From a virus: a stretch of DNA of 21,792 nt. The translations under genes were made by a program, and so were the position numbers. The notes under the pieces are model-generated. The model saw only the letters and a program-made list of their open reading frames with translations, was not told where the DNA came from and ran no database searches. The first letter of the stretch is position 1. Each line of letters begins with the position of its first letter. The stretch covers positions 1 to 21,792 of IMG/VR virus record IMGVR_UViG_3300025732_000305; one strand, written 5' to 3'. Shown here piece after piece: positions 1-13,026 of this stretch.

Positions 1-351
1 AACGGAAAATACGAGATACTGGAGTACAAAGGTTCGAATGAATTTAGCGACTTAATGCTATATGCTCCTATGGACGTGGCTATTTCGGCTTCGCTTTTTT
101 TTTGGACTTTAGGAAGCGAGTTGTTAAACGCTACCCTAAACTATTTGGAGACGGAATTAACGAATCTGACAAAGAAAGAACAAGCGATTATTCACAAAGA
201 ACTCAGTTTGGTAAAAAATGGGGGTGGTATTCAAGCATCTACGGACTTGCTAAGGGAGACATTACAAAATATGACGAAGTTACTCGATACGGATTATATC
301 AATGTCTCACTTATCTCACTTTCGAAGCAGAAAAAAACGAAATCGAATTAA
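1..351 (+). CDS. Tail assembly chaperone, zero-frame product (5' partial)
   Basis: The frame is open from the first base of the window, so the start lies upstream and only the C-terminal 116 residues are seen. It reads as plausible protein throughout, including a hydrophobic stretch after VAISASLFF and the segment NGGGIQAS. At bases 96-102 it crosses T TTT TTT in the correct phase for -1 slippage, after which the ribosome would enter the frame ending at 377. Position in a tail operon, next to a frame lacking its own ATG, fits the gpG half of a lambda G/GT-type chaperone pair, which helps tail tube subunits assemble on the tape measure. That role is inferred from layout; I see no diagnostic motif in the zero frame. 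Alternatively only the part before base 102 matters and the rest of the frame is a shadow. Confidence 0.5.
   Translation, partial: NGKYEILEYKGSNEFSDLMLYAPMDVAISASLFFWTLGSELLNATLNYLETELTNLTKKEQAIIHKELSLVKNGGGIQASTDLLRETLQNMTKLLDTDYINVSLISLSKQKKTKSN
95..103 (+). promoter_or_regulatory. T9 run, candidate -1 frameshift slippery site
   Basis: Nine consecutive T residues. In the zero frame the codons are ctt ttt ttt tgg, so bases 96-102 read T TTT TTT, the canonical X XXY YYZ heptamer. Slipping back one base leads to TTG GAC, which is the frame ending at 377. I did not identify a convincing downstream hairpin or pseudoknot by eye. Confidence 0.5.
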
Positions 352-377
352 ATGAAATTAAAAAAAGCTACAAATGA
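102..377 (+). CDS. Tail chaperone -1 frame extension (gpT-like), probably made by frameshifting
   Basis: This 91-codon frame resembles a small tail protein common in Bacteroidetes phages; the recognisable part is FGKKWGWYSSIYGLAKGDI followed by DEVT, then CLTYL and a charged helix to the end. It contains no ATG or GTG at all: the only start available is the TTG at 102, directly on the T9 run. In-frame stops at 39-41 and 45-47 close it upstream. The simplest reading is that it is translated as a fusion to the upstream zero frame after a -1 shift at 96-102, giving a long chaperone form as in lambda gpGT. Its TGA overlaps the next start as ATGA (374-377). A sequencing or assembly error in the T9 run would give the same picture, since one base more or less would fuse the frames. 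Confidence 0.6.
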   Translation: MDFRKRVVKRYPKLFGDGINESDKERTSDYSQRTQFGKKWGWYSSIYGLAKGDITKYDEVTRYGLYQCLTYLTFEAEKNEIELNEIKKSYK

Positions 378-829
378 CAGGCTACTTTTCACTATTAAAT
401 GAACTAAGAACCCACTTCAATTCGGATCCAATTGTGAACACTATTTCGCAAGGGTCGATTTTCAATGTGGATTTAGGCAAACAAACCATTTTCCCACTGG
501 TTCACGTTATGGTTAATCAGGTTACTTTCAACGACAATGTTATGACTGCGAATGTCACTCTTTTAGCAATGGACAACGTAAGCCAAAGAAAAGACGAAGC
601 ACCCGACTCATTCGAGACCGCAGATAATGAAATAGACGTTTTGAATACTCAACTTGCGGTTTTAAACCGGGCATTCGAAATGCTTAAACACGGAAACTTA
701 TTCGATGACTTATACCACTTGAACGGAACTCCAACTTGCGAACCATTTACCGAGAGATTTGAAAACTACTTAGCAGGTTGGGCAATGACATTTGATGTAG
801 ATTTTCCAAATGAAATGACACGATGTTAG
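374..829 (+). CDS. Tail terminator/completion-like structural protein
   Basis: A 151-residue protein of a type recurrent in Bacteroidetes siphophages and usually placed among neck or tail genes. Recognisable segments are DPIVNTISQGSIFNVDLGKQ near residues 18-37, the acidic NEIDVLNTQLAVLN in the middle and a C-terminal FTERFENYLAGWAMTFDV. Size and position between a chaperone and a gp10-like protein fit a tail terminator or completion protein that caps the tail tube, but this is inference from context. Its start overlaps the previous stop (ATGA) and its end overlaps the next start by seven bases, so it is translationally coupled on both sides. The exact role is uncertain. Confidence 0.55.
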   Translation: MTGYFSLLNELRTHFNSDPIVNTISQGSIFNVDLGKQTIFPLVHVMVNQVTFNDNVMTANVTLLAMDNVSQRKDEAPDSFETADNEIDVLNTQLAVLNRAFEMLKHGNLFDDLYHLNGTPTCEPFTERFENYLAGWAMTFDVDFPNEMTRC

Positions 830-1359
830 AAAAAGCGCACCAAAGAAAAGCACTTGAAAAGTTCCGTGATTACGTCATTCGGGAAGCGAAGAATAATCTA
901 CGCAAAAAAAATGCTTCAGGAGAACTGATGAAATCCTTAAAGGCTGATTTTAAAGTTATGCCTAACTCGATTCGGTTCTTTTTTCAAATGGCGGAATATG
1001 GTTTCTACCAAGACCAAGGAGTAAAAGGTGTAAGTTCGGGAAAAAGTTTAAGCAACTTTAGATTCGGAACAGGCACAGGGAAAAAAGGCGGTTTAACGGA
1101 AGGGATTCGAAAATGGGTTGCGAAAAGACGAATCCAATTTAGAAATGAAAAAGGACAATTTTTGTCCAATGATGCAACGAGCAGAATCATCATTCGTTCA
1201 ATTTGGCAAAAGGGAATCAAGCCATCTTTATTCTTTACGAAACCATTTGAAAAAGCATTTACCAAACTACCAAATGAAATGATAGAAGCCTATGGCTTAG
1301 AAGGTCAAGAACTATTCGACACAATAATGAAAGAAAACTTTAAGAACTATGGCTATTAA
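823..1359 (+). CDS. HK97 gp10-like neck/tail completion protein
   Basis: A basic 178-residue protein. The central segment YGFYQDQGVKG, the Gly-rich FRFGTGTGKKGGLTEGIRKW and the C-terminal GIKPSLFFTKPFEKAF form the pattern typical of Bacteroidetes phage proteins grouped with HK97 gp10-like neck or tail-completion proteins. The GIKPSxFFTKPF block resembles the conserved C-terminal helix of that group, where a basic residue is followed by 'pFl.pA'-like residues. It would act at the head-tail junction of the particle. It overlaps both neighbours (7 and 11 bases), in line with expression from one late polycistronic message. Function rests on motif resemblance and location. Confidence 0.55.
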   Translation: MLEKAHQRKALEKFRDYVIREAKNNLRKKNASGELMKSLKADFKVMPNSIRFFFQMAEYGFYQDQGVKGVSSGKSLSNFRFGTGTGKKGGLTEGIRKWVAKRRIQFRNEKGQFLSNDATSRIIIRSIWQKGIKPSLFFTKPFEKAFTKLPNEMIEAYGLEGQELFDTIMKENFKNYGY

Positions 1360-2452
1360 CCGAATCTTTGCAAGAAGCCCGTATATTGTGGAAATCAACC
1401 AACCTACTCAAACAGGGAGCAAGGTAGAATTATACATTTACCAAAGTGGAACGCCCGCACCCGTATCGCCGAGTTACACGTTAGAGAAATTGATTCCTGC
1501 AAGTAACAACACTCAAACATTGTATAATATTTCTCCGTACTTAATGGAGTATATAGAGCATAACACTTTCGTGAATAATTATTCAACCGATAGTGGGTTG
1601 CTTTCGGTATCGGAATATATTTTAGTTGATGTTAAGACGTATTGGCTTGACCCGTTCACGCAATCTTATGTTGCGCTTTCAACGGCAACTTACTACGGAT
1701 TTGATGGTTTCGGGCTTTACTCACAAGGGTTTAACCCTACTCACGGTCAAGCAATGCCCGTACATTTAGACGAACAAAACTACTACTTTTGGTCTGATGC
1801 TAATAACACCCCTATAAGCAACCAACTTCAACGAGGTGGTACTTTTGTTGCGTGGTTAGAAACAGGGTGGGAAGTCAAATATACGCAACTTCAAACAGGC
1901 TTAACTTACTCATATACGATTGCTTCAAATGACTATTATAACCTATACAGGGTTTACCCAAGTTATTATTTGACAGGAAACATAGTTGAGATATTTACCC
2001 CTATGGCGGTTTTAAGTTGGACATCAACTTTTAATCCGATTGAAGAGTGCAAGTACGATGTTCAAGTAGTGGATTTTGTTAATATGTACGGGGCTTGGCA
2101 AAGGGAGTTTTTCTTTAAAGCGAGTTTCGAAAACTTAGAAGTAACGACTACCGAATTTAACTTGATGCAAGAAGGCTCCGTTCCTTTTTGGAGTTACAAC
2201 GAATTATTGAACCAACGTCAAACCTTTAACACTAACGGAACAATCGGCTATCGAGTTAATACTGGGTGGGTAGATGAAACCTTTAATAACAACCTTCAAC
2301 AACTTATGTTAAGCGAAAGAATTTTGCTAAATAATATGCCTGTCAAGTTAAAGACGAAATCCGTAGAAAAGCAAAAAAACATAAACAATAAGATGATTAA
2401 TTATGTCCTTGAATTTGAGCAAAGCAACGACCTAATAAACAACGTAATTTAA
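1349..2452 (+). CDS. Tail structural protein of unknown function
   Basis: A 367-residue protein rich in Asn, Tyr, Thr and Ser, with few Lys in its first two thirds, which is typical of beta-rich particle proteins. It begins MAINRIFARSPYIVEINQ, a start I associate with a recurrent Bacteroidetes phage tail protein; no enzyme motif is visible. A Lys-rich segment near the C-terminus (around residues 335-350) precedes the end. It has no signal peptide or membrane segment. It lies between the completion proteins and a very large tail protein, and its TAA overlaps the next ATG by one base (TAATG). It may be part of the distal tail or a fibre/adhesin; I cannot choose between these from sequence. Confidence 0.5.
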   Translation: MAINRIFARSPYIVEINQPTQTGSKVELYIYQSGTPAPVSPSYTLEKLIPASNNTQTLYNISPYLMEYIEHNTFVNNYSTDSGLLSVSEYILVDVKTYWLDPFTQSYVALSTATYYGFDGFGLYSQGFNPTHGQAMPVHLDEQNYYFWSDANNTPISNQLQRGGTFVAWLETGWEVKYTQLQTGLTYSYTIASNDYYNLYRVYPSYYLTGNIVEIFTPMAVLSWTSTFNPIEECKYDVQVVDFVNMYGAWQREFFFKASFENLEVTTTEFNLMQEGSVPFWSYNELLNQRQTFNTNGTIGYRVNTGWVDETFNNNLQQLMLSERILLNNMPVKLKTKSVEKQKNINNKMINYVLEFEQSNDLINNVI

Positions 2453-4734
2453 TGAAAAGGCAAGTAAGAATTTTCGTAGAAGGTAGGCAACTTGACTTGT
2501 TCAATGACGAATCAATCGAGGTAACTTCCACGATTCAAAACGTCCAAGACATATCGAAAACCTTTACGGATTTTTCGCAGTCATTCACGATTCCAACAAG
2601 TCCGAGAAACAATGCAGTTTGGCAATACTTCTACGAAAACGCTATCAATAGTTCAATTAACTATCAGGAACGCTTGGATGGTTATATTGAAATAGATATG
2701 ACGTTTTTTCGTAGGGGTAAAATCCAAATGGAAAAGTCGCAACTAAAAAACGGACAACCCAACTCATATACGGTAACATTCTACGGAAGCATAACTACCC
2801 TTAAAGACATTTTTGGAGAGGACCTATTAAGCAACTTAGATTATACGACCTTAAACCACGATTACACGTTCACGGAAGTATTTAACCGAGTAGTGGACGC
2901 TTCGACTGATTATGACGTATGCTATCCTTTAATTAGTTCTAACAGGATTTGGGAATACGGACCACTCTTCCCTAATGGAAACATACCTAATTGGTTAGGT
3001 TCAATCGGTGGAAACGACATTACTAATAACTTAGGCGCAATCGTTTACACGGAGTTATTCCCTGCGGTTCGAGTGGCTTCAATATTTCAAATCATTGAGC
3101 AAACTTACGGGGTTAATTTCACGGGAGCTTTTTTAACGGATCCAAAATTCACACAGGCTTACTTATGGTATAAAAATCGAAATCAATTTGTATTCACTTC
3201 CGAAGCTCAGGACATAACTTTAAGTTCATTCATAGGGGGTGGTGGGTATGGTCTTTACAACTTACTTCCTTATGTTGATATAGCAACTTCAAGCGTTAAT
3301 TTAACTTACTTAGGCGGAGTTAATTGGCACGGGGTTTCCTTAGCAGTTAATACAATTTCAAACCCTGCAATTACTTATTATATTGACGTTTACAGGAACG
3401 GAAATCTATTCGCTACTTGGACTTGTCTCAACACTACGATAGGGGGCAATTTAGGGTTTATCACAAACACGCAAGGGTTAAATGACACTTATACTTTTCA
3501 GATTAGGTCTTCGGCTCCTTTAAGCGTGGATTTTGTACTAACGTATGGGGTAAGTTATTTCATTGGAATTACCCCACAAAATGATTTTGTCCAGTATTCC
3601 ACGAACACAAACAACTTAACCACGTTCACGGACTTAGCCAACTCCGCCCCGTTAATGAAGATTAATGACTTTATTGCGGGGATTTTAAAGGAATTTAACT
3701 TAACTTGTTTTGCGACAGGGGTTAATACCTTTGAGATTATTCCTTTGCAAGATTGGTACGCTTCGGGGGCGGTCGTGGACATAACCGAGTTCACGGATAA
3801 AACCGAAATCGGAGTAGATAGGGTAAAACTTTACAAGAAAATTGCGTTCAAATATCAGCAGTCAAACTCCTTTATGAACAAAGCATTCTTCGACCAAGCA
3901 CTCAGAGAATACGGAAACACGGAATACCAATATCCATACGATGGCGGAGAATACACCATAGAAGTTCCATTTGAAAACTTACTATTTAATCCGTTTGTCG
4001 ACCACGATATTCCAACAGGGTTGCAAGTCGGTTACTCCTTGGATAATGCTTTTGCTCCGTATATCCCAAAACCTTGCATCCTTTATAAATTCGGAGGGGT
4101 TAATTTAGTTCAAGATTTTAAACTTTCAGACGGAACAAACCCGCCAACGGCAACGAATGACTACGTTATGTTCGGTCAAGATTTGCAAGTTATGGGGGTA
4201 GATTATTCCACGAATTTTGCACCTGAAACGTCAACGCATTGGCTAACTGCTATCAATCAATCTTTATTCGCGACATATTACTTTCCTTATTTAACAAATC
4301 TCTTCAATGCTAAGAACCGATTAACTACGATTAAGGCGAATTTACCCGTCTCACTTTTAACGGGACTTCAATTAAACGACAGGCTAATCATTCGGGATAA
4401 AAGGTACTTGATTAATCAGATGAAAACGAATATGACAACGGGTGAAACTACGTTCGAACTTTTAAATGATTTTATGCCTATCGAACCAATTAAAATCATA
4501 CAAGTTGGGGAAGCCGAAGACGATGGACTAATCGGAGTAAGCCTACCTAACACAGCATTAAAGGCTATGTTTTCAAGCACTCAAACTGATGTCTTTATAG
4601 ACCCAGTAATGATTGAATCGAGCCAACAAATCTACGTTAGATTTAGCGCAGACCCAACGACCACAATCGATGTTACTTACTTGTTTCCGAATGGAGACAC
4701 ACAAGACGACCAAATAATAATAGTTAAGATATGA
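2452..4734 (+). CDS. Large tail protein, baseplate hub/distal tail candidate
   Basis: A 760-residue beta-rich structural protein. The first 100 residues contain DISKTFTDFSQSFTIPTSPR and a following segment about size and shape changes (FYENAINSS, RGKIQMEKSQ) that recur at the start of large tail proteins in Bacteroidetes phages. The middle is Asn/Thr/Tyr-rich with aromatic clusters, and residues around 440-560 (DRVKLYKKIAFKYQQSNSFM) look like a conserved core shared with tail hub proteins. The C-terminal 80 residues (after FMPIEPIKIIQVGEAEDD) look like a separate small domain. A baseplate hub or receptor-binding component is plausible from size and from its place just before the tape measure gene, but no catalytic or named domain can be read directly. 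Confidence 0.5.
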   Translation: MKRQVRIFVEGRQLDLFNDESIEVTSTIQNVQDISKTFTDFSQSFTIPTSPRNNAVWQYFYENAINSSINYQERLDGYIEIDMTFFRRGKIQMEKSQLKNGQPNSYTVTFYGSITTLKDIFGEDLLSNLDYTTLNHDYTFTEVFNRVVDASTDYDVCYPLISSNRIWEYGPLFPNGNIPNWLGSIGGNDITNNLGAIVYTELFPAVRVASIFQIIEQTYGVNFTGAFLTDPKFTQAYLWYKNRNQFVFTSEAQDITLSSFIGGGGYGLYNLLPYVDIATSSVNLTYLGGVNWHGVSLAVNTISNPAITYYIDVYRNGNLFATWTCLNTTIGGNLGFITNTQGLNDTYTFQIRSSAPLSVDFVLTYGVSYFIGITPQNDFVQYSTNTNNLTTFTDLANSAPLMKINDFIAGILKEFNLTCFATGVNTFEIIPLQDWYASGAVVDITEFTDKTEIGVDRVKLYKKIAFKYQQSNSFMNKAFFDQALREYGNTEYQYPYDGGEYTIEVPFENLLFNPFVDHDIPTGLQVGYSLDNAFAPYIPKPCILYKFGGVNLVQDFKLSDGTNPPTATNDYVMFGQDLQVMGVDYSTNFAPETSTHWLTAINQSLFATYYFPYLTNLFNAKNRLTTIKANLPVSLLTGLQLNDRLIIRDKRYLINQMKTNMTTGETTFELLNDFMPIEPIKIIQVGEAEDDGLIGVSLPNTALKAMFSSTQTDVFIDPVMIESSQQIYVRFSADPTTTIDVTYLFPNGDTQDDQIIIVKI

Positions 4735-4916
4735 GTTACATAAATACCATAATTCAGTTACTTCAAGTAGGCGAGTTTGTAGGCGAACACGAATACATTG
4801 AGATAGCGAAAGGAAAATATAAACTACACGACAGGATTAAACCCGCATTCAAGCAAATGTTAAGGGAATTATACTTAAAAAAACTAAATAAAAATGGCGG
4901 AAAAACGGACGATTGA
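4731..4916 (+). CDS. Small conserved tail-operon protein
   Basis: A 61-residue charged protein beginning MSYINTIIQLLQVGEFVGEH and ending in a basic, Lys- and Asn-rich tail. It has no membrane segment and no motif that I recognise. It starts inside the stop of the preceding gene (ATGA) and ends 23 bases inside the tape measure gene, so it is embedded in the operon and probably real despite its size. Small proteins just before the tape measure gene are sometimes tail chaperones, but here that role seems to be filled by the frameshifted pair at the left end, so I assign no function. Confidence 0.5.
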   Translation: MSYINTIIQLLQVGEFVGEHEYIEIAKGKYKLHDRIKPAFKQMLRELYLKKLNKNGGKTDD

Positions 4917-7323
4917 TTTAGAAATCAAAGACAACACAAGGTCCTTAAAGGCGCAATATAAGGAAGCAGTAATTGAATTGCAAAAGGTTAGTCAAGCCTA
5001 TGGGGAAACTTCCGCAGAAGCCGTAAAGGCGGCTAAGGCGGCGTCCTTGTTGAAAGACCAAATATCAGACACAAATAACTTAGTAGACGCCTTTAATCCT
5101 GATGCAAAATTTAACGCAGTTACGAAATCCGTAGGTGGGGTGTTAGACGGATTCCAAGCGGTTCAAGGTGGCTTAGGATTAGTCGGAATTGAGGGGGAAG
5201 CCGTTCAGGCAACTTTACTGAAAGTGCAAAGTGCTATGGCACTATCGCAAGGGCTACAAGGGTTAATGGAGGCAAAGGATTCATTCAAGCAATTATACAC
5301 GGTAATTAAGGACGTAGTTTCGGGGTTATTCAAAAAGAATGCCGTTACTATGGCTGGGGCGGCTATCGATAAAGCCAACGTTGTAACGACAGGGCTTCAA
5401 GCAACTGCTTCGGGCGGTTTAGCCGCTGCTCAAACAGGGGTATCGGTATCTACAGGGGTGGCATCTAATGCTATGAAGGTATTTAGAACTGCGTTAATTT
5501 CAACAGGAATTGGGGCGATTGTTGTGGCTATCGGGTTGCTTATAGCGAATATGGATAAGGTTGCTCAATTATTCAAATATGCAGGGGAAAAAGTGTTGTG
5601 GGCTTATCATCAATTTGAAAAATTAGGCAAAGGGTTAAAGATTTTTATTGCGTGGTTTTTGGTAATCCCAGGACTTGTCTATGCGGCAATTAAAGCCCTT
5701 GAATATTTTGGATTTATAGACGATGAACAAACTGCACGACAAAAGAAAAACGCTAAGGCAGCCGCAGAAGCCCACGAGAAAAAGACGGATAGAAGGATAA
5801 AGGCTCTGCAAAAAGAATCGAAGGCGGAACAGGCTCGACTTGAACACGAAATCAACCTTCAGCGAGCATTCGGAAAAGAGACATTTGCTTTGGAAGTTAA
5901 GAAATTAAAAGCCCAAATAACTGCAGGTCGTGAGTTCATAAAACTACAAAAAGAAAAAGCCCAAACGTATGTCATTGAATTAGGCTTATTAGCCGCTTTA
6001 GAGGAGGAGGATTCTGATAGATATAAAAGCCTAAAGAAAAAGTTAAAGGAATCAAACAAGGCTATCGCAGAAAGCTATAAGGAAACGGTTGGGGCTATCA
6101 ACGCCCTTGAGATTTTACAGGCGGAAAATTCCGTTAAAGGGGCGGAAAATGCTAAGAAAACCAAACAGGATTTAATGGCTTTCATTAAGAAGCAATACGA
6201 AGACGAATCCAAATTAGCTGAAGAATTAGAGAATCAAAAACTTGCGTTAATGCAAGACGGAATTGATAAAGAAAAAGCACTCCGACAAGATGCCTTCAAT
6301 GATTACAAAGACAACTTTCTAAAGGAAAAAATGGCGGAGGAACAAGCCGCACTCGACAAGAAATTTGAAAACGGAAAGCTAAGTGAAAAGGAGTACATAA
6401 AAGCTACTTCGGACTTAAGATTAAACGCCGAAGCAAACTTAACGGAAGCTGAAAAAGAAATCCTAACGAATGCTAAGTTGATTTTAAATCAAGACTTACT
6501 CGCAATAGACGAAAAGCACCAAGCAGAAGTCAAGAAAAGAACGGAAGACTTTCAAAAGAAAATGGCGGAAGACGAACGCAAACGAAAGTTAGAGTTTGAT
6601 ATGCAGATTGAAAACTTGGAGGAATTAAATTATCAAGCAAAACTATCAGACCAAGCGAGGGAACTTTATTTAGTGCAGGAAAAATATGCCGAAATGGAAC
6701 GTATGGCTAAGGGAAATGCTGAAGCCGAAAAGACGTTGGAAGAAGCAAAAGGAAGGGAAGTAGATGCCATAAAGAAGAAATTTGCAGATGAAGACAAGAA
6801 GCGAAGACAAGATAATTTAAACAAAAACTTAGACGCAACGAAGCAACAATTTCAAGCCATTGGGGATTTAGCCTTAGCCTTTAATGCCAAATCAAAAGCG
6901 GGGCAACTCAAAGCATTTAATATAAAGAAAGGGGCAGATATAGCAAGTGCAACCATTGACACTTACAAGGCGGCCAACTCGGCTTATGCTTCGATGTCGG
7001 GAATCCCAGTGGTAGGCCCTGCATTAGGGGCGGTAGCGGCAGGGATAGCCGTAGCGGCGGGAATCCTGAATGTAAAGAAAATTGCTTCACAAAAGTTTGA
7101 AGGTGGCGGAAGCACTTCAGGTGGTGGTGGTGGCGGTGGTGGAGACGTAGGCGGATTAACTGCGGGTGGTGGACAAGCACCTAACTTTAACGTAGTTGGA
7201 AACAATGGACTTAATCAATTAGCCCAACTTCAACAACAACCCACACAGGCATTTGTCGTGAGCGGACACGTTACGACTGCTCAGTCCTTAGACAGGAATC
7301 GAATTGAAAACGCAACACTTTAA
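4894..7323 (+). CDS. Tail tape measure protein
   Basis: An 809-residue protein, the longest in the window, with tape measure architecture. Residues 1-60 are alpha-helical and charged; residues 70-190 are Ala/Gly/Val-rich; two hydrophobic segments follow at about 200-220 (ALISTGIGAIVVAIGLLIAN) and 250-268 (IFIAWFLVIPGLVYAAIKAL); residues 280-660 are a very long Lys/Glu/Ala-rich coiled coil with many heptad-like runs; then comes a second hydrophobic Ala/Gly stretch (around 700-735) and a poly-Gly linker before a Gln-rich end. Tape measure proteins set tail length and can insert in the host membrane through such hydrophobic segments. At roughly 1.5 Angstrom per residue a tail near 120 nm would be expected, which is a rule-of-thumb inference. 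No lytic transglycosylase or peptidase domain is seen. Confidence 0.85.
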   Translation: MAEKRTIDLEIKDNTRSLKAQYKEAVIELQKVSQAYGETSAEAVKAAKAASLLKDQISDTNNLVDAFNPDAKFNAVTKSVGGVLDGFQAVQGGLGLVGIEGEAVQATLLKVQSAMALSQGLQGLMEAKDSFKQLYTVIKDVVSGLFKKNAVTMAGAAIDKANVVTTGLQATASGGLAAAQTGVSVSTGVASNAMKVFRTALISTGIGAIVVAIGLLIANMDKVAQLFKYAGEKVLWAYHQFEKLGKGLKIFIAWFLVIPGLVYAAIKALEYFGFIDDEQTARQKKNAKAAAEAHEKKTDRRIKALQKESKAEQARLEHEINLQRAFGKETFALEVKKLKAQITAGREFIKLQKEKAQTYVIELGLLAALEEEDSDRYKSLKKKLKESNKAIAESYKETVGAINALEILQAENSVKGAENAKKTKQDLMAFIKKQYEDESKLAEELENQKLALMQDGIDKEKALRQDAFNDYKDNFLKEKMAEEQAALDKKFENGKLSEKEYIKATSDLRLNAEANLTEAEKEILTNAKLILNQDLLAIDEKHQAEVKKRTEDFQKKMAEDERKRKLEFDMQIENLEELNYQAKLSDQARELYLVQEKYAEMERMAKGNAEAEKTLEEAKGREVDAIKKKFADEDKKRRQDNLNKNLDATKQQFQAIGDLALAFNAKSKAGQLKAFNIKKGADIASATIDTYKAANSAYASMSGIPVVGPALGAVAAGIAVAAGILNVKKIASQKFEGGGSTSGGGGGGGGDVGGLTAGGGQAPNFNVVGNNGLNQLAQLQQQPTQAFVVSGHVTTAQSLDRNRIENATL

Positions 7324-7344
7324 CCATTTTTAAATTAATATATT

Positions 7345-7923
7345 ATGAGAATCATAGAATTGATAATCGAAGCCGAAGACGAACAAGGCGGAATAGAAGC
7401 GGTAAGCTTAGTTAAAAGTCCTGCTATCGAAGAAAACTTCATAGCCTTGGCAAAACACGAAATCGAACTCAAAGAAATAGACACTGAGAAACGAATCCTA
7501 ATGGGTGCGGCTCTAATCCCAAACAAACAAATCTACCGAAAAAACAACAAGAACGAGGAATATTATATTTACTTTTCGTCTGACACGATTAGAAAAGCAA
7601 GTGAACTATTCCTGATGCGGTCAAACCAAAACAACGCAACTTACGAACACGAGAAAAAAATTCAAGGGTTGTCGGTTGTCGAATCTTGGATAATTGAAGA
7701 CAAACAAAAAGACAAATCTAAACTTTACGGATTCGACTTACCAAAAGGAACTTGGATGATTTCGATGAAAGTAAATAACGAAGAAGTTTGGAACGACGTT
7801 AAAGAAGGCAAAGTTAAAGGCTTTTCAATCGAAGGTTACTTTGCGGATAAATACGAAATGAGCGCAGAGGAAAACGAAGCTACCGAAGTAATCAATGAGT
7901 TAAAGAAACTTTTAGGCTTATAG
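7345..7923 (+). CDS. XkdF-like prohead protease (Peptidase_S78_2 type)
   Basis: A 192-residue protein with the pattern of the XkdF-like serine protease family found in many Bacteroidetes phages. The start GGIEAVSLVKSPAIEENF (residues 15-32), ILMGAALIPNKQIYR (51-65), TYEHE with candidate catalytic His102, VVESWII (111-117) and KGFSIEGYF with candidate catalytic Ser161 follow in the expected order. Such proteases cut the scaffold and capsid N-terminus during head maturation. Here the gene sits 1.3 kb before the capsid gene with the scaffold-like gene between them, supporting that role. The length is usual for the family. The start follows a 21-base AT-rich gap after the tape measure gene, so this may begin a separate translational unit in the same message. 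Confidence 0.8.
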   Translation: MRIIELIIEAEDEQGGIEAVSLVKSPAIEENFIALAKHEIELKEIDTEKRILMGAALIPNKQIYRKNNKNEEYYIYFSSDTIRKASELFLMRSNQNNATYEHEKKIQGLSVVESWIIEDKQKDKSKLYGFDLPKGTWMISMKVNNEEVWNDVKEGKVKGFSIEGYFADKYEMSAEENEATEVINELKKLLGL

Positions 7924-7924
7924 A

Positions 7925-8059
7925 ATGGCTAAACAAACTAACGTAAAAGTTCACGTTCGCAAACCAAAGGTAAAACGTCCTAACATACACGCCAAAAGTA
8001 AAACGAGCAAACTAAAAACTTCAAAGAATTACGTTAAACTAAATAAAGGTCAAGGATGA
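7925..8059 (+). CDS. Conserved basic microprotein (44 aa)
   Basis: ATG at 7925 opens a 44-codon frame reading MAKQTNVKVHVRKPKVKRPN and then a segment with KSKTSKLKTSKNY, ending KLNKGQG. It is extremely rich in Lys, with no acidic residue, so it may bind nucleic acid or an acidic partner such as the scaffold. I recall very similar short basic proteins next to the protease gene in other Bacteroidetes phages, so I take it as real although it is short. It starts one base after the protease stop and its TGA overlaps the next ATG (8056-8059), which supports coupled translation. Function is not known to me. Confidence 0.7.
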   Translation: MAKQTNVKVHVRKPKVKRPNIHAKSKTSKLKTSKNYVKLNKGQG

Positions 8060-8256
8060 AAGAAGAAAAGCGGTCAAGCCCAAGAGGCGGTAAGCGTGGT
8101 TGCCTATGCAAAGACGGAACTTACAACCGAAAATGTTGTACTGGCGATTTACAAAATCAAGGAATAGGAAGCACTTACGACCAAACGACAGGAAGTCAAA
8201 CAACCAACCAAAACACGAACCATTCAAGCACGAATAATGGTACAGGCGGTAACTAA
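8056..8256 (+). CDS. Small Cys-motif phage protein (66 aa)
   Basis: The N-terminal half holds RGGKRGCLCKDGTYNRKCC followed by TGDLQNQGIG, with four cysteines arranged C-x-C and C-C; the same block is familiar from short proteins in Flavobacterium phage head regions. The C-terminal half is low complexity, rich in Asn, Thr, Gln and Ser. The cysteines could bind a metal ion or form disulfides, but with only four in this spacing I cannot decide. It is coupled to the basic microprotein before it by an ATGA overlap and followed by a 37-base gap. A role in the head is suggested only by its position between protease and scaffold. Confidence 0.65.
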   Translation: MKEEKRSSPRGGKRGCLCKDGTYNRKCCTGDLQNQGIGSTYDQTTGSQTTNQNTNHSSTNNGTGGN

Positions 8257-8293
8257 AAATGCAACAAACAAAAATTAAATAAGTTATAAGGAT

Positions 8294-8626
8294 ATGAAAA
8301 ACATTTTAGACAAAATCAACAAAGCGGACGAAATCCAAGCCAACAAAGTTGAGTTAGGTACGCACGAAGTGGAGTTAGCGACTATTAAAATTCTTGAAGA
8401 CGATGCTGTAAGAATGAAAAAAGGTTTAGATAAATTAAAAGCATTACGTTTAGAAATGAGAAAAACCTATTTAGATTCAATAGATAAAGCAAACACTAAT
8501 TGGGGGGATTTTAAGCAAAAAGCAAAAGAACTTGGATTAGACCCAAATGAGTTTCCGTTAGTTAAAAGTTTTGTCGATAGACAAAGAGAACTTGACGATG
8601 CGTTTTACTTACCTAATAAATTATAA
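8294..8626 (+). CDS. Coiled-coil protein of the head module
   Basis: A 110-residue, almost wholly helical protein. Residues 1-75 show heptad-like spacing of Leu, Ile and Val with many Lys and Glu (for example LDKLKALRLEMRKTYLDSID), followed by WGDFKQKAKELGLDPNEFPL. No membrane segment or enzyme motif is seen. AAGGAT lies six bases before the ATG, one of the few Shine-Dalgarno-like sequences in the window. It sits directly before the acidic scaffold-like gene, so it may assist capsid assembly, but this is inference from location only. Confidence 0.65.
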   Translation: MKNILDKINKADEIQANKVELGTHEVELATIKILEDDAVRMKKGLDKLKALRLEMRKTYLDSIDKANTNWGDFKQKAKELGLDPNEFPLVKSFVDRQRELDDAFYLPNKL

Positions 8627-8637
8627 ATAAAAACAAA

Positions 8638-9237
8638 ATGAAAAATAGTACACTATTAGAAAAAATCAAAGCTATGCTTTCTAACGAAATTAAGTTAGAG
8701 CAAATGTTAATGGGCGATGGGGTTACTAAAATCGAAGCCGAAACTTTTGAAACAGGAAAAGAAGTTTTTGTCGTAACTGAAGACGAACAAAAAATTGCCG
8801 TTCCAGTAGGCGAATACGAATTAGAAGACGGGCGAATCTTAGTTATAGTTGAAGAAGGAATCATTTCTGAAATCAAAGAAAAAGAAGAAGAAGTTAAAGA
8901 GGAAGAAGTAACCGAAGAAGTTGCCGAACCAGTAGCCGAAGAAGAAATGACAACCGAAGCCCCTGTATCTACTCCAAAGAAAACAATCGAATCCATCGTT
9001 AAAGAAACATTCTTTAGTGAAATGGAAAAACTTAAAAAAGAAAACGAACTATTAAAAAGCGAATTAGCTAAGTTATCTAAAGTTGACGAAGTCGAAGAAA
9101 CAATGACCGAACTTTCAGAAGCCCCTGAACCTATCGCTTTTAATCCTGAAAACGAAGCAAAAACCGACCATTTTAAAATCGGTAAAAAAGCATCTAAAGG
9201 TATAATGGATTCCGTTCTTAACAAAATGTATAATTAA
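8638..9237 (+). CDS. Capsid scaffold-like acidic protein
   Basis: A 199-residue highly acidic protein immediately upstream of the major capsid gene. Residues 15-75 have a beta-rich segment (GDGVTKIEAETFETGKEVFV, PVGEYELEDGRILVI) typical of a group of Bacteroidetes phage head proteins; residues 80-110 are a Glu-rich linker (KEEEVKEEEVTEEVAE); residues 115-150 are a coiled coil (MEKLKKENELLKSELAKLSK); the end is a basic helix (KIGKKASKGIMDSVLNKMYN). Acidic coiled-coil proteins with a basic C-terminal capsid-binding helix between protease and capsid genes are usually scaffolds removed by the protease. The beta segment before the linker is less usual for scaffolds, so a decoration or head-tail role is not excluded. 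Confidence 0.65.
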   Translation: MKNSTLLEKIKAMLSNEIKLEQMLMGDGVTKIEAETFETGKEVFVVTEDEQKIAVPVGEYELEDGRILVIVEEGIISEIKEKEEEVKEEEVTEEVAEPVAEEEMTTEAPVSTPKKTIESIVKETFFSEMEKLKKENELLKSELAKLSKVDEVEETMTELSEAPEPIAFNPENEAKTDHFKIGKKASKGIMDSVLNKMYN

Positions 9238-9251
9238 TTTTTTAAAATAAA

Positions 9252-10187
9252 ATGCCAACAACAACTAACATCACAACATCGTACGCTGGTCAATGGGCTG
9301 GTAAGTACGTTTCTGCGGCTCTTTTGAGCGCACCAACAATCGAAGGCGGAGGGGTTACCGTTATGCCTAACGTAAAATTTAAATCAGTAATTCAAAGGGT
9401 TGAATCAAACGACATTCTAAAAGATGCCACCTGCGACTTTACACCTACTTCTACTGTTGATTTAACCGAGCGAGTTCTTGAAGTAAAAGACCTACAAGTA
9501 AACCTAACTTTTTGTAAGTCTCAATTTCATTCAACTTGGCAATCAATCGAAATGGGTTATTCGTCTTTTGATACTTTGCCTAAATCTTTTGCTGATTACT
9601 TAATAGCTTATGCTTCTGAGAAAGTTGCAGCCGCTAACGAGGTTTCTATTTGGCAAGGTTCTTCTGCAACGTCAGGTCAATTTGACGGATTATTTACAAC
9701 TGCTCAAGCCGATCCCGCTCTTCCAGTAGCGCAAAACATCGTTGGAGTTGCTATTGATGCTACTAACGTAATTGCCCAAATGCAATTAGTTTACGATGCT
9801 ATCCCTGCTTCTTTGTACGGAAAACCTGACTTAAAACTTTATGTTTCTCAAAACGTAGCTAAGGCTTATGTCGCTGCATTGGGTGGTTTCGCAGTAGCGG
9901 CTACTTCAAATTCAGGGGTTAATGCTCAAGGTACTATGTGGTACAACAACGGAGCGTTGACGTTCAACGGATTGCCTATCTTTATGGCTAACGGATTGCC
10001 TGCCGATTCAATGTTAGCTACAACCGTATCTAACCTTTATTTTGGTTGTTCACTTTTAAGCGATACGCAAGAAGTTAGAGTAATTGACACTTCGGCTACT
10101 TTAGGAGATGACAACGTTCGTGTAGTTATGCGAATGGCTGCAGGGGCGCAATACGGAGTTATCGAGGACATCGTAATTTACGGATAA
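9252..10187 (+). CDS. Major capsid protein
   Basis: A 311-residue protein whose pattern matches HK97-fold capsid proteins of Bacteroidetes phages: an N-terminal TNITTSYAGQWAGKYVSAAL, a central helix rich in Ala and Ile (FADYLIAYASEKVAAANEVS, then IWQGS), the LYVSQNVAKAYVAAL segment and a C-terminal RVVMRMAAGAQYGVIEDIVI. It has no delta domain of 100 residues at the N-terminus, consistent with a separate scaffold encoded just upstream. Codon use looks smoother than that of its neighbours, with common Ala GCT and Gly GGA/GGT codons as expected for a highly made protein. A 14-base gap separates it from the scaffold-like gene, and a GC-rich hairpin follows its stop, which may stabilise the mRNA or reduce read-through. 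Confidence 0.85.
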   Translation: MPTTTNITTSYAGQWAGKYVSAALLSAPTIEGGGVTVMPNVKFKSVIQRVESNDILKDATCDFTPTSTVDLTERVLEVKDLQVNLTFCKSQFHSTWQSIEMGYSSFDTLPKSFADYLIAYASEKVAAANEVSIWQGSSATSGQFDGLFTTAQADPALPVAQNIVGVAIDATNVIAQMQLVYDAIPASLYGKPDLKLYVSQNVAKAYVAALGGFAVAATSNSGVNAQGTMWYNNGALTFNGLPIFMANGLPADSMLATTVSNLYFGCSLLSDTQEVRVIDTSATLGDDNVRVVMRMAAGAQYGVIEDIVIYG

Positions 10188-10195
10188 TCGCAATT

Positions 10196-10224
10196 AATTA
10201 ACGGGGGCGGTTAATTTTGCCCCC
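10196..10224 (+). terminator. Hairpin after capsid gene, weak terminator or mRNA-stabilising element
   Basis: GGGGGC at 10203-10208 and GCCCCC at 10219-10224 form a perfect six-pair GC stem with a ten-base loop, followed by only TATTTAT, so termination would be partial at best. AATTAAC at 10196-10202 and GTTAATT at 10210-10216 can form a seven-pair stem that excludes the GC stem. Confidence 0.5.
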
Positions 10225-10253
10225 TATTTATAAACGAATAAAAACATAAAAAA

Positions 10254-10817
10254 ATGAGTTGCGATATATCACACGGAAGATTAGAACCTTGTAAAGATGC
10301 GGTAGGTGGTTTGCGTAATATTTACATTTTGAACTATGGTCTTTACGACCCCATTTCAGATGTAACGTATGATGCGACACCGGGCGAGGAAGACCAAATT
10401 ACTGCTATTGCTTTAACACCCGCTTCTACAATTTACAAGTACGAATTGAAAGGAACAAATTCCTTCGAAACCACTATTACGAGTTCACGAGAAAACGGAA
10501 CAACTTTCTTTGAACAAGTGTTGTCCATTCAGTTAAAAAAACAAGATGCGATTACACACAAACAAATCAAGTTGCTTTCTTACGGAAGACCAAATATTAT
10601 TGTTGAAAACAACAACGGGCAATTCTTTATTGCAGGTCTTGTCAGAGGAATGGACGTAACTGCGGGAACTATTGCCAACGGAACTGCACTTGGAGATATG
10701 ACAGGTTACACTTTGACTTTCACAGGTCAAGAACCAGTACCTGCTAACTTCTTAGATTGTTCCGATGAAGCTGGATTAGTTGCTTTATTGAATAACCCAA
10801 CGGTTGACAATAACTAA
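10254..10817 (+). CDS. Major tail tube protein
   Basis: A 187-residue protein with the signature of Bacteroidetes siphophage tail tube proteins: MSCDISHGRLEPCKDAVGGL at the start, then YKYELKGTNSFETTITSSRE and NGTTFFEQVLSIQLKK, LLSYGRPNIIVENNNGQFFI and GMDVTAGTIANGTALGDMTG, then YTLTFTGQEPVPANF. Copies of this protein stack to form the tail tube around the tape measure. It is placed with the capsid gene, away from the other tail genes of this window. Hairpins lie before and after it (the capsid hairpin and the strong terminator at 10839-10864), so the capsid-tube pair may be regulated as a high-expression block. Confidence 0.8.
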   Translation: MSCDISHGRLEPCKDAVGGLRNIYILNYGLYDPISDVTYDATPGEEDQITAIALTPASTIYKYELKGTNSFETTITSSRENGTTFFEQVLSIQLKKQDAITHKQIKLLSYGRPNIIVENNNGQFFIAGLVRGMDVTAGTIANGTALGDMTGYTLTFTGQEPVPANFLDCSDEAGLVALLNNPTVDNN

Positions 10818-10838
10818 GAATTTTACGTTCATAGCGTT

Positions 10839-10864
10839 AAGGGGGTGGCGACACCCCTTTTTTT
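10839..10864 (+). terminator. Intrinsic terminator after tail tube gene
   Basis: GGGGTG (10842-10847) and CACCCC (10852-10857) form a six-pair GC-rich stem with a GCGA tetraloop, extendable by G-T and A-T pairs, followed by seven Ts (10858-10864). This is a textbook Rho-independent terminator. Confidence 0.85.
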
Positions 10865-10898
10865 ATGCACAAAAAAACACAAAAAGAGTTATACATAT

Positions 10899-11231
10899 AT
10901 GATAGTAGTTTCAGAATCTAACACTTCGCAATCATTTGATTTTATACCGAGATACGGAACTCCCGTAACTTGCGAACTAACGGACGAAAACACGAACGTG
11001 CCTGTAATAGTTTCAGGAACATTTACAAGCGGCGATTATGTTCACTCATTTTCTGCGGTATTACCTACTTTGGAAAACCACTTTTACTGGGTTGAACTAA
11101 AAGACGGAAGCAACAACACCCTATTAAAAGAGAGAATGTTTTGCACGAATCAACCTATCGACACTTTCTCCGTGAACAACGGTGGATATGTCTCGAATCA
11201 AACAACTAACGACTTCATAATGTATGAGTAA
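10899..11231 (+). CDS. Small beta-rich structural protein
   Basis: A 110-residue protein rich in Thr, Ser, Val and Asn with alternating hydrophobic residues, as in a small beta sandwich (FDFIPRYGTPVTCELTDEN, VSGTFTSGDYVHSFSAVLP, FYWVELKDGSN, MFCTNQPIDTFSVNNG). Small proteins of this look occur near the portal or tube genes of Flavobacterium phages. The ATG at 10899 is chosen over an in-frame GTG at 10845, because the latter lies inside the terminator stem and adds an unlikely leader. The gene overlaps the portal start by eight bases. It may be a minor head or tail decoration protein; the function is not known. Confidence 0.6.
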   Translation: MIVVSESNTSQSFDFIPRYGTPVTCELTDENTNVPVIVSGTFTSGDYVHSFSAVLPTLENHFYWVELKDGSNNTLLKERMFCTNQPIDTFSVNNGGYVSNQTTNDFIMYE

Positions 11232-13026
11232 TAATGTCCACATTTTACAATTAGCGGAATACCAACAACCCGTACTTCAGGAAAACTCGCGCGATGCGTG
11301 GGTAGGTTGGGGAGAAAATAACGACTACTTCGATTATTTAATAGATAGGTATACAAATTCAACGACAAACGGCGCGATAATAAACAACGTTTCGCGTTTG
11401 ATATACGGAAAAGGTTTAAGCGCCTTAGACGCTTCGCGTAAGCCTAACGAGTATGCGCAAATGATGACTTTGTTTAGTAAAGATTGCGTTCGTAAAATGG
11501 TATTCGATAGAAAACTTTTTGGTCAATTTGCAATCCAAGTACATTACAACGAAAAGCACGATAAAATTCTAAAGGCTTACCATATACCCGTTAACCTATT
11601 AAGAGCGGAAAAATGTAACGACAAAGGCGAAGTAACGGGATATTATTATTCGGATAATTGGAAGGAAGTACGCAAGTTCCCGCCTATGCGGATTCCTGCA
11701 TTCGGACACTCAAAAGAAAAAATCGAAATCTTATTCGTTAAGCCTTATGGGGTTGGGATGAAATACTATGCCTACCCCGACTACCAAGGCGCGATACCTT
11801 ACGCAGTTCTTGAAGAAGAAGTAAGTGATTATCTAATTAACGAAGTTCAAAACGGCTTTTCAGGAACAAAAGTCGTTAACTTTAACAACGGAGTTCCTTC
11901 GGAAGAACAACAAGACTTAATAAGCCAAAAAGTTCTAGGAAAATTAACGGGTTCTAAAGGCCAAAAAGTTATCGTAGCTTTTAATTCCAACGTAGAATCA
12001 AAAACAACAGTCGACGATATACCGTTAAACGACGCACCCGACCATTACACGTATTTATCGGACGAATGTTTACGCAAAATAATGTTAGGCCATAACGTTA
12101 CTTCGCCTTTACTTTTCGGTATTGCTTCAACTAACGGGTTTAGTTCTAACGCGGACGAATTACAAAACTCGTTTATCCTATTCAACAATATGATTATTAA
12201 GCCGTTTCAAGACGAAATACTTGAAGCCTTTGATAAGGTATTAGCTTATAACGGAGTAGCGTTAAAATTATTCTTTAGAACTCTTAAACCGCTTGAATTT
12301 ACGGACTTAGAAAATGCACAAACGGAAGAACAAGTAACCGAAGAAACGGGAGCGGATGCAACGGAATTAAAAGCACAAAGCACCGAAGAACAAATAGCGT
12401 TAGCGTTACAAGAGTTCGGCGAACAACCGCAAGAAAATTGGCTATTAATAGACGAAGCACCAGTAGATTACGACACGGACGAAGAAGAAAACAACGCTCT
12501 TAAAGGCGAAAAAAGTTTATTCTCACGTTTAGTTGAATTAGTAAATACTGGGATCGCTTTTCCTAATTCAAAATCAGAGCAAGACGAAGTAATAGAGGGA
12601 ATAAAATTTATTACGAGATACGTTTACGAAGGCGAAGACGGCGGGAAATCAGGTAAGACAAGACCATTTTGTAAACTAATGAAATCGGCTAAAAAGATTT
12701 ATCGAAAAGAAGACATTCTAAGAATGAATCAATCAATCGTGAATGGGTTCTATGTAAACGCTGAAGGGCGAGAAATTGGCTTCGGTCCACGAGGAAATCT
12801 AACTTATGATATTTGGCTCTACAAAGGTGGTGCTAATTGTCATCATCGCTGGAACAAAAGAGTTTACGCACAGTTCGATACTCGCTTCGGGATTGACGTA
12901 AATAGTCCAAACGCTAAACAAATTGCGGTCAAAAAGGCAGAGAAATTTGGTTATAAAATTAAAAACAATGCACTTGTTTCGACACGTCCAATAGATATGC
13001 CGAACCGAGGATTTTTACCTAAATAA
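11224..13026 (+). CDS. Portal protein with C-terminal extension domain
   Basis: A 600-residue protein. Residues 1-365 look like a Bacteroidetes phage portal: an Asn/Tyr-rich start (WGENNDYFDYLIDRY), the helix around residues 53-65 (IINNVSRLIYGKGL), a central KAYHIPVNLLRAEKC segment and a long conserved region including LGHNVTSPLLFGIASTNGFS at about residues 289-308. A Glu/Thr/Gln-rich linker covers about 365-445. The final domain (about 455-600) holds RPFCKLMKSAKKIYRKEDI, YDIWLYKGGANCHHRW and a basic end. The Cys of FC, the Cys and the two His of GANCHHRW could bind a metal ion; similar motifs occur in Mu gpF-like or other head-morphogenesis domains. Portals form the dodecameric DNA channel of the capsid. 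The extension suggests that a minor head protein has become fused to the portal, as in related phages. Confidence 0.75.
   Translation: MSNNVHILQLAEYQQPVLQENSRDAWVGWGENNDYFDYLIDRYTNSTTNGAIINNVSRLIYGKGLSALDASRKPNEYAQMMTLFSKDCVRKMVFDRKLFGQFAIQVHYNEKHDKILKAYHIPVNLLRAEKCNDKGEVTGYYYSDNWKEVRKFPPMRIPAFGHSKEKIEILFVKPYGVGMKYYAYPDYQGAIPYAVLEEEVSDYLINEVQNGFSGTKVVNFNNGVPSEEQQDLISQKVLGKLTGSKGQKVIVAFNSNVESKTTVDDIPLNDAPDHYTYLSDECLRKIMLGHNVTSPLLFGIASTNGFSSNADELQNSFILFNNMIIKPFQDEILEAFDKVLAYNGVALKLFFRTLKPLEFTDLENAQTEEQVTEETGADATELKAQSTEEQIALALQEFGEQPQENWLLIDEAPVDYDTDEEENNALKGEKSLFSRLVELVNTGIAFPNSKSEQDEVIEGIKFITRYVYEGEDGGKSGKTRPFCKLMKSAKKIYRKEDILRMNQSIVNGFYVNAEGREIGFGPRGNLTYDIWLYKGGANCHHRWNKRVYAQFDTRFGIDVNSPNAKQIAVKKAEKFGYKIKNNALVSTRPIDMPNRGFLPK

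Follow-up and report, generated by a model that had tools for sequence, protein, structure and literature searches.

We analysed a window of 21,792 bases, the whole of one virus record, which opens inside a gene whose 5' end lies off the contig. The gene is present whole in L002, a near-identical contig (99% identity to the window in the -1-frame domain described below), where it runs for 245 codons (L002:4513-5250); the window covers residues 130-245 of this 245-residue zero-frame product. The 3' part of the gene occupies positions 1-351 of the plus strand, and the N-terminal part of its product matches phrog_32199, a family annotated as of unknown function. Zero-frame codons start at 1, 4, ... 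97, 100 and read CTT TTT TTT TGG from position 94, a phase that confirms the in-phase slippery heptamer T TTT TTT which the earlier note had reported at 96-102, and that places it within a run of nine Ts (T9) at 95-103. In the -1 frame, a T-like domain (KKWGWYSSIYGLAKGD...) extends over 102-377 of the plus strand, with 91 codons, a TTG at its head and neither ATG nor GTG, while the zero frame is closed only by the TAA at 349-351. The two frames are both open over 103-351 (plus strand), which is 249 nt past the heptamer with the stop counted (the earlier figure was 248), and their endings differ little in length, with 82 zero-frame and 91 -1 codons after the slip. The next gene (374-829, plus strand; 151 aa, phrog_30964) begins with an ATG that overlaps the stop of the -1 frame as ATGA.

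Upstream of this frameshift gene lies the gene for the large terminase subunit, seen in L002. The window continues with five ORFs (151, 178, 367, 760 and 61 aa), which separate the frameshift gene from the tape measure protein encoded at 4894-7323. Read together, window positions 1-13026 and the upstream part of L002 give the order terminase, frameshift gene, small ORFs, tape measure, protease and portal, with the head genes coming after the tape measure gene. Rfam and tRNA scans of the window returned no match.

Comparison with relatives, a large group of phages that are uncultured apart from a Nonlabens pair, revealed a nearly invariant T run. A first search with the -1 domain found 164 relatives, of which the best 80 were kept; T9 was exact in all 80, as it is in the window. 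Wider scans, each taken to its best 80 loci, gave 449 sources, many of them the same contig again, and these represent 208 distinct homologous slip regions; T9 was exact in 207 of the 208 among the matches listed, and so was the in-phase heptamer T TTT TTT, which is of the X XXY YYZ type. The codon preceding TTT TTT was NTT in every case (179 of 179 sources: GTT 143, CTT 27, ATT 9), and the zero-frame codon after the run started with T in every class seen (TGG, TAC, TAT, TCG). The remaining region carries T10 (L228:959-968), has both frames fused into one, and may be either an assembly error or a natural variant. The earlier note had called for a check of the run for length errors and had named a T8 or T10 that yields one continuous frame as the outcome that would undo its proposal. 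By comparing homologous regions, we found only this single fused T10 among the 208 distinct regions listed, and the T9 run is thus not a sequencing artefact.

To characterize how the -1 domain could be translated, we surveyed start codons in the 147 distinct relatives whose upstream part is complete. From the slip to the WGWY motif, the -1 frame contained an ATG or GTG in none of them (0/147). Its first codon is TTG in 130 of the relatives and TTA in the other 17, and a TTG start is therefore not conserved. Further upstream, between the preceding -1 stop and T9, ATG and GTG were missing from 138 of the 147 and one was present in 9, and the conserved -1-frame residues start right at the T run. 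Because no ATG or GTG start stands before WGWY in any of the 147 relatives, the one evident way into the domain is to change frame at T9. The earlier suggestion that this reading frame could hardly be made without a shift, and that the shift occurs at T9, is upheld by these counts, and the comparison supports the view that the -1 domain would need a frame switch at T9. The 3' border of the overlap was regular as well: in all 147 relatives examined the zero-frame stop lies at most 71 nt from the -1 stop; the ATG of the following gene was found in 136 of these and has -4 spacing to the -1 stop in 124.

Past the slip site, the zero frame is strongly depleted of stop codons. Within its first 69 codons, 71 distinct close relatives contain no stop at all, against 4.59 per sequence expected from codon usage, and the chance of an open zero frame is P 1.7e-4 to 3.2e-3 for each; 69 codons were used in this test, 18 of the 71 having a natural zero-frame stop at about codon 70. 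The third frame holds 8-13 stops over the same stretch. As a control we took 17 other window genes picked from the ORF list, in which the stop expectation holds, since the same calculation predicts their +1-frame stops correctly (446 seen versus 452.5 expected); none of the 3,977 70-codon windows in these genes was open in either alternative frame. The 147 distinct relatives, which come from -1-frame queries, likewise had no zero-frame stop in 65 codons, versus 3.96 per sequence expected. Among the matches listed, 203 of the 207 T9 regions keep the zero frame open for 67-92 codons from TTT TTT, although one of the five wider scans was queried with the zero-frame protein and could favour open frames. 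The long open stretch past the slip that the earlier note had described is thus a property of the family, with four exceptions among the 207 listed: L320 at 21 codons and three Nonlabens-type sequences at 27, and the zero-frame tail is therefore not universal. L320 (L320:1994-2061) has a natural early stop, 21 codons from TTT TTT on, together with an intact -1 domain; its T9 is retained even though TCG, rather than TGG or TAC, comes after the slip.

Substitution patterns point to constraint beyond the mere absence of stops. A tree-based count on 63 sequences gave 0.097 changes per sequence at -1-frame four-fold sites of codons 22-71, versus 0.165 in the genes on either side. A pairwise test on 106 phylogenetically independent pairs, drawn from 213 distinct sequences, gave a four-fold divergence of 0.080 in -1 codons 22-65 where single-coding sequence has 0.205 (Wilcoxon P about 1e-15), which amounts to 2.5 times less change in the overlap. 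When the count was restricted to codons in which no third-base change could create a zero-frame stop, the values in the 106 pairs were 0.085 and 0.217, and the constraint therefore exceeds stop avoidance. In -1 codons 0-21, four-fold differences occurred at 3 of 647 sites over the same pairs. Where a third base does change, the resulting zero-frame replacements are milder than expected (BLOSUM -1.5 versus -1.8, P 0.001). The comparison of codon-position conservation in both frames that the earlier note had recommended thus finds constrained -1 four-fold sites and conservative zero-frame replacements; with the stop deficit, these results across relatives favour its reading of the locus as an unusual dual-coding stretch. 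About 200-270 nt after T9, corresponding to 103-351 in the window, appear from these comparisons to be under selection in both frames.

The 3' limit of this constraint is less sharply drawn. Past the zero-frame stop, four-fold divergence rises (8 of 25 sites differ) but two-fold divergence remains low (16 of 238), and past codon 84 four-fold divergence is low (3 of 85 sites), partly as this is still overlap in the longer types and partly as it lies next to the following gene. The last six -1 codons (window 357-374 and equivalents), by the next gene's ATG, are nearly fixed, with four-fold differences at 1 of 60 sites. We dropped a clean boundary of constraint at the zero-frame stop, since the tree-based rise rests on one site and the pair data are mixed. 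RNA structure as a source of the synonymous constraint found no support from folding or from a consensus structure.

We then characterized the predicted products. AlphaFold2 modelled the zero-frame product with a mean pLDDT of 77.8; a single predicted helix at residues 153-183 (10-residue pLDDT means 75-89) spans the slip site, whose residues 162-163 are FF, and the tail after residue 184 is poorly predicted (10-residue pLDDT means 41-67). The -1 domain modelled alone reached a pLDDT of 68.1 and is all helical. Within the family, the N-terminal domain matches phrog_32199 in 64 of 64 members, and phrog_166 ('tail protein') matches weakly in 24 of 64, with a best E of 5e-4. Searches of Pfam and NCBIfam gave no match to the family, no annotated tail-chaperone family in PHROG, Pfam or NCBIfam matches the frameshift gene, and fold comparison with the PDB gave no match at E <= 0.001. 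A matching fold was found in 36 predicted viral proteins, and those named in the list are all uncharacterised. The mode of action, together with the weak tail-protein profile matches, suggests that the gene may encode a tail chaperone. Among cultured phages only a Nonlabens pair matched, four further records at E 0.8-4 being left aside as weak local matches. Flavobacterium phage 6H (NC_021867; L292:10048-10927, minus strand) gave a weak fold match to the family, and its gene plus the 304 unannotated nt after it are coding-like sequence in changing frames; we dropped this phage as evidence, as the frames there change in another way. An actinobacterial protein from the genome-collection scan (L213) was rejected as a chance match with no T run.

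Taken together, we propose a single gene whose two products are determined by frame switching at T9, a reading to which we assign a probability of roughly 0.8. Most translation would stay in the zero frame and yield a 'G-like' protein of about 245 residues, in which the conserved N-terminal domain is followed by a long helix spanning the slip site and by an additional tail some 60 residues long. In a minority of events, a -1 shift on T TTT TTT, or an mRNA with one extra U from polymerase slippage, would produce a 'GT-like' fusion, about 254 residues long, with the conserved WGWY domain at its end. As shown by comparison of the relatives, T9 is kept, a shift appears to be needed and both frames appear to be selected over the overlap; we infer in addition that the shifted product is the minor one, that the zero-frame tail is itself a useful protein segment, and that the pair may act like lambda gpG/gpGT in tail assembly. 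Weighing against the proposal are the poor prediction of the zero-frame tail, the short zero frames of L320 and the Nonlabens type, the mixed constraint past the zero-frame stop, and the failure to detect a stimulator or an annotated tail-chaperone match. A more specific version, on which we would bet neither way, holds that the same nucleotides encode two alternative C-terminal segments of near-equal length, that the zero-frame tail is selected and functional, and that T9 swaps the endings, unlike lambda's extension, in an arrangement kept in some 200 distinct phage sequences. The zero-frame extension could instead code for nothing useful and be open only to bring ribosomes to the next gene, a coupling that avoids premature release. 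The near-coincidence of the two stops (within 71 nt in 147/147) and the -4 spacing of the next ATG (124/136) suit such coupling, as does the poor AlphaFold2 prediction of the tail. Coupling does not, however, predict the contrast of 0.085 with 0.217 at never-stop four-fold sites or the conservative zero-frame replacements, and it cannot explain codons 0-21, which encode the conserved zero-frame helix; we regard it as unlikely. Much less probable still is that the -1 domain is a separate gene, expressed with no frameshift from a weak start of its own, either TTG at 102 or reinitiation. The window does have that TTG, and the second gene of the Nonlabens phages is annotated from an ATG overlapping the zero-frame stop, but TTA takes the place of TTG in 17/147 relatives, ATG and GTG are found in 0/147, -1 conservation sets in at the T run, and the Nonlabens homology reaches about 25 codons ahead of the annotated ATG. 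As for a homopolymer sequencing or assembly error that split one continuous gene, we consider its likelihood negligible: homopolymers are error-prone and L228 has T10, but T9 recurs in 207/208 regions listed, including two deposited cultured-phage genomes, and after such an error the zero frame would not remain open and selected.

The frame switch at T9 could be brought about by the ribosome or by RNA polymerase. At -1 sites, SD-like sequences or downstream RNA structures commonly act as stimulators, without being obligatory. A search for SD-like stimulators across 213 sequences gave 60 hits, and no single motif was shared by more than 25 sequences; RNA folding 3' of the slip gave z-scores of -1.1 to +0.7, and the consensus RNA structure, at -0.43 kcal/mol, contained no compensatory pair. 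The lack of a detected ribosomal stimulator of either kind fits the possibility that RNA polymerase slips on T9, so that a fraction of the mRNAs carries U10 and is read normally into the -1 domain. The same possibility is favoured by a run of exactly nine in 207/208 regions listed, though seven Ts suffice for a ribosomal heptamer, and by L228, in which one added T fuses the frames. The review PMC5009743 states that runs of 9 As or Ts cause high-efficiency slippage by bacterial RNA polymerase in vivo, and that Thermus dnaX relies on 9 Ts; T9 reaches the threshold for transcriptional slippage given there, at least nine A or T. The two extra Ts are, however, also fixed by the protein, in that the preceding codon always encodes I, V or L (NTT) and the next zero-frame codon is T-initial, and the same review describes G/GT frameshifting in other long-tailed phages as ribosomal; the in-phase position of the heptamer likewise suits a ribosomal shift. 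Both kinds of slippage fit the sequences, with the ribosomal kind slightly ahead, and we hold polymerase slippage to be a genuine possibility, somewhat short of even odds.

If the one-gene, two-product reading is true, the family would offer a natural dual-coding region of about 200-270 nt with some 200 distinct sequences to study, and the T9 locus would be a test case for distinguishing the ribosome from a slipping RNA polymerase. The gene is also likely misannotated in many such phages, as a hypothetical protein with a truncated or missing second gene, as in the Nonlabens records. Searching the literature by title or abstract, with full texts limited to freely available papers, we found no paper on this gene family or on a long selected G/GT overlap.

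Frameshifts in tail chaperone genes usually leave a short overlap. The gene described here resembles lambda G/GT in that a phage assembly gene would switch to the -1 frame close to its end, yielding an unfused product alongside one joined to a conserved second domain; as expected of G/GT genes, the slippery site lies in the 3' part of the first ORF and the -1 ORF has no start of its own. The stop codon of lambda G ends 18 nt past the heptamer G GGA AAG, whereas the overlap here is 249 nt, in line with the earlier remark that it far exceeds the lambda case. The slip sites also differ (GGGAAAG versus T9), and so does the setting: lambda G/GT is flanked by the major tail protein gene and the tape measure gene, while the gene here follows the terminase and, rather than standing directly upstream of the tape measure (4894-7323), precedes it by five ORFs. 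No sequence relation was detected between lambda G/GT and this gene, which may work like lambda G/GT and is a putative member of that class. HK97 gp13/gp14 offers a further likeness as an annotated -1 frameshift product of a tail gene; its -1 reading frame becomes open no more than 52 nt upstream of where the gp13 stop ends, an overlap far shorter than here, and a script search of the gp13/gp14 overlap found no in-phase XXXYYYZ heptamer. According to PMC5009743, Thermus thermophilus dnaX likewise yields two products from a nine-T run; there, the zero frame encodes the longer product, and the shorter one arises by slippage.

The closest cultured counterparts are the Nonlabens phages P12024S and P12024L, which combine a homologous N-terminal protein (26% identity), T9 and a homologous -1 domain (23-25% identical) next to the terminase gene, with homologues of the window's next two genes also downstream. 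They differ in having a zero frame of 27 codons counted from TTT TTT and a second ORF whose internal ATG overlaps the zero-frame stop, the frameshift being unannotated. The earlier note had named relatives with a normal ATG for the second frame and no slippery site as evidence against its proposal; here the ATG is present, but T9 is kept. Homology in the Nonlabens -1 frame begins about 25 codons before the annotated ATG (FR.R....YP.L and SD are conserved), and on account of these residues the -1 frame is homologous from the T run on. As annotated, the second gene, P12024S_39 (JQ823122.1; L136:2625-2870) and its counterpart in JQ823123.1, starts at the internal ATG; since conserved -1-frame sequence extends back to T9, both copies look truncated in the record, with the frameshift left unannotated.
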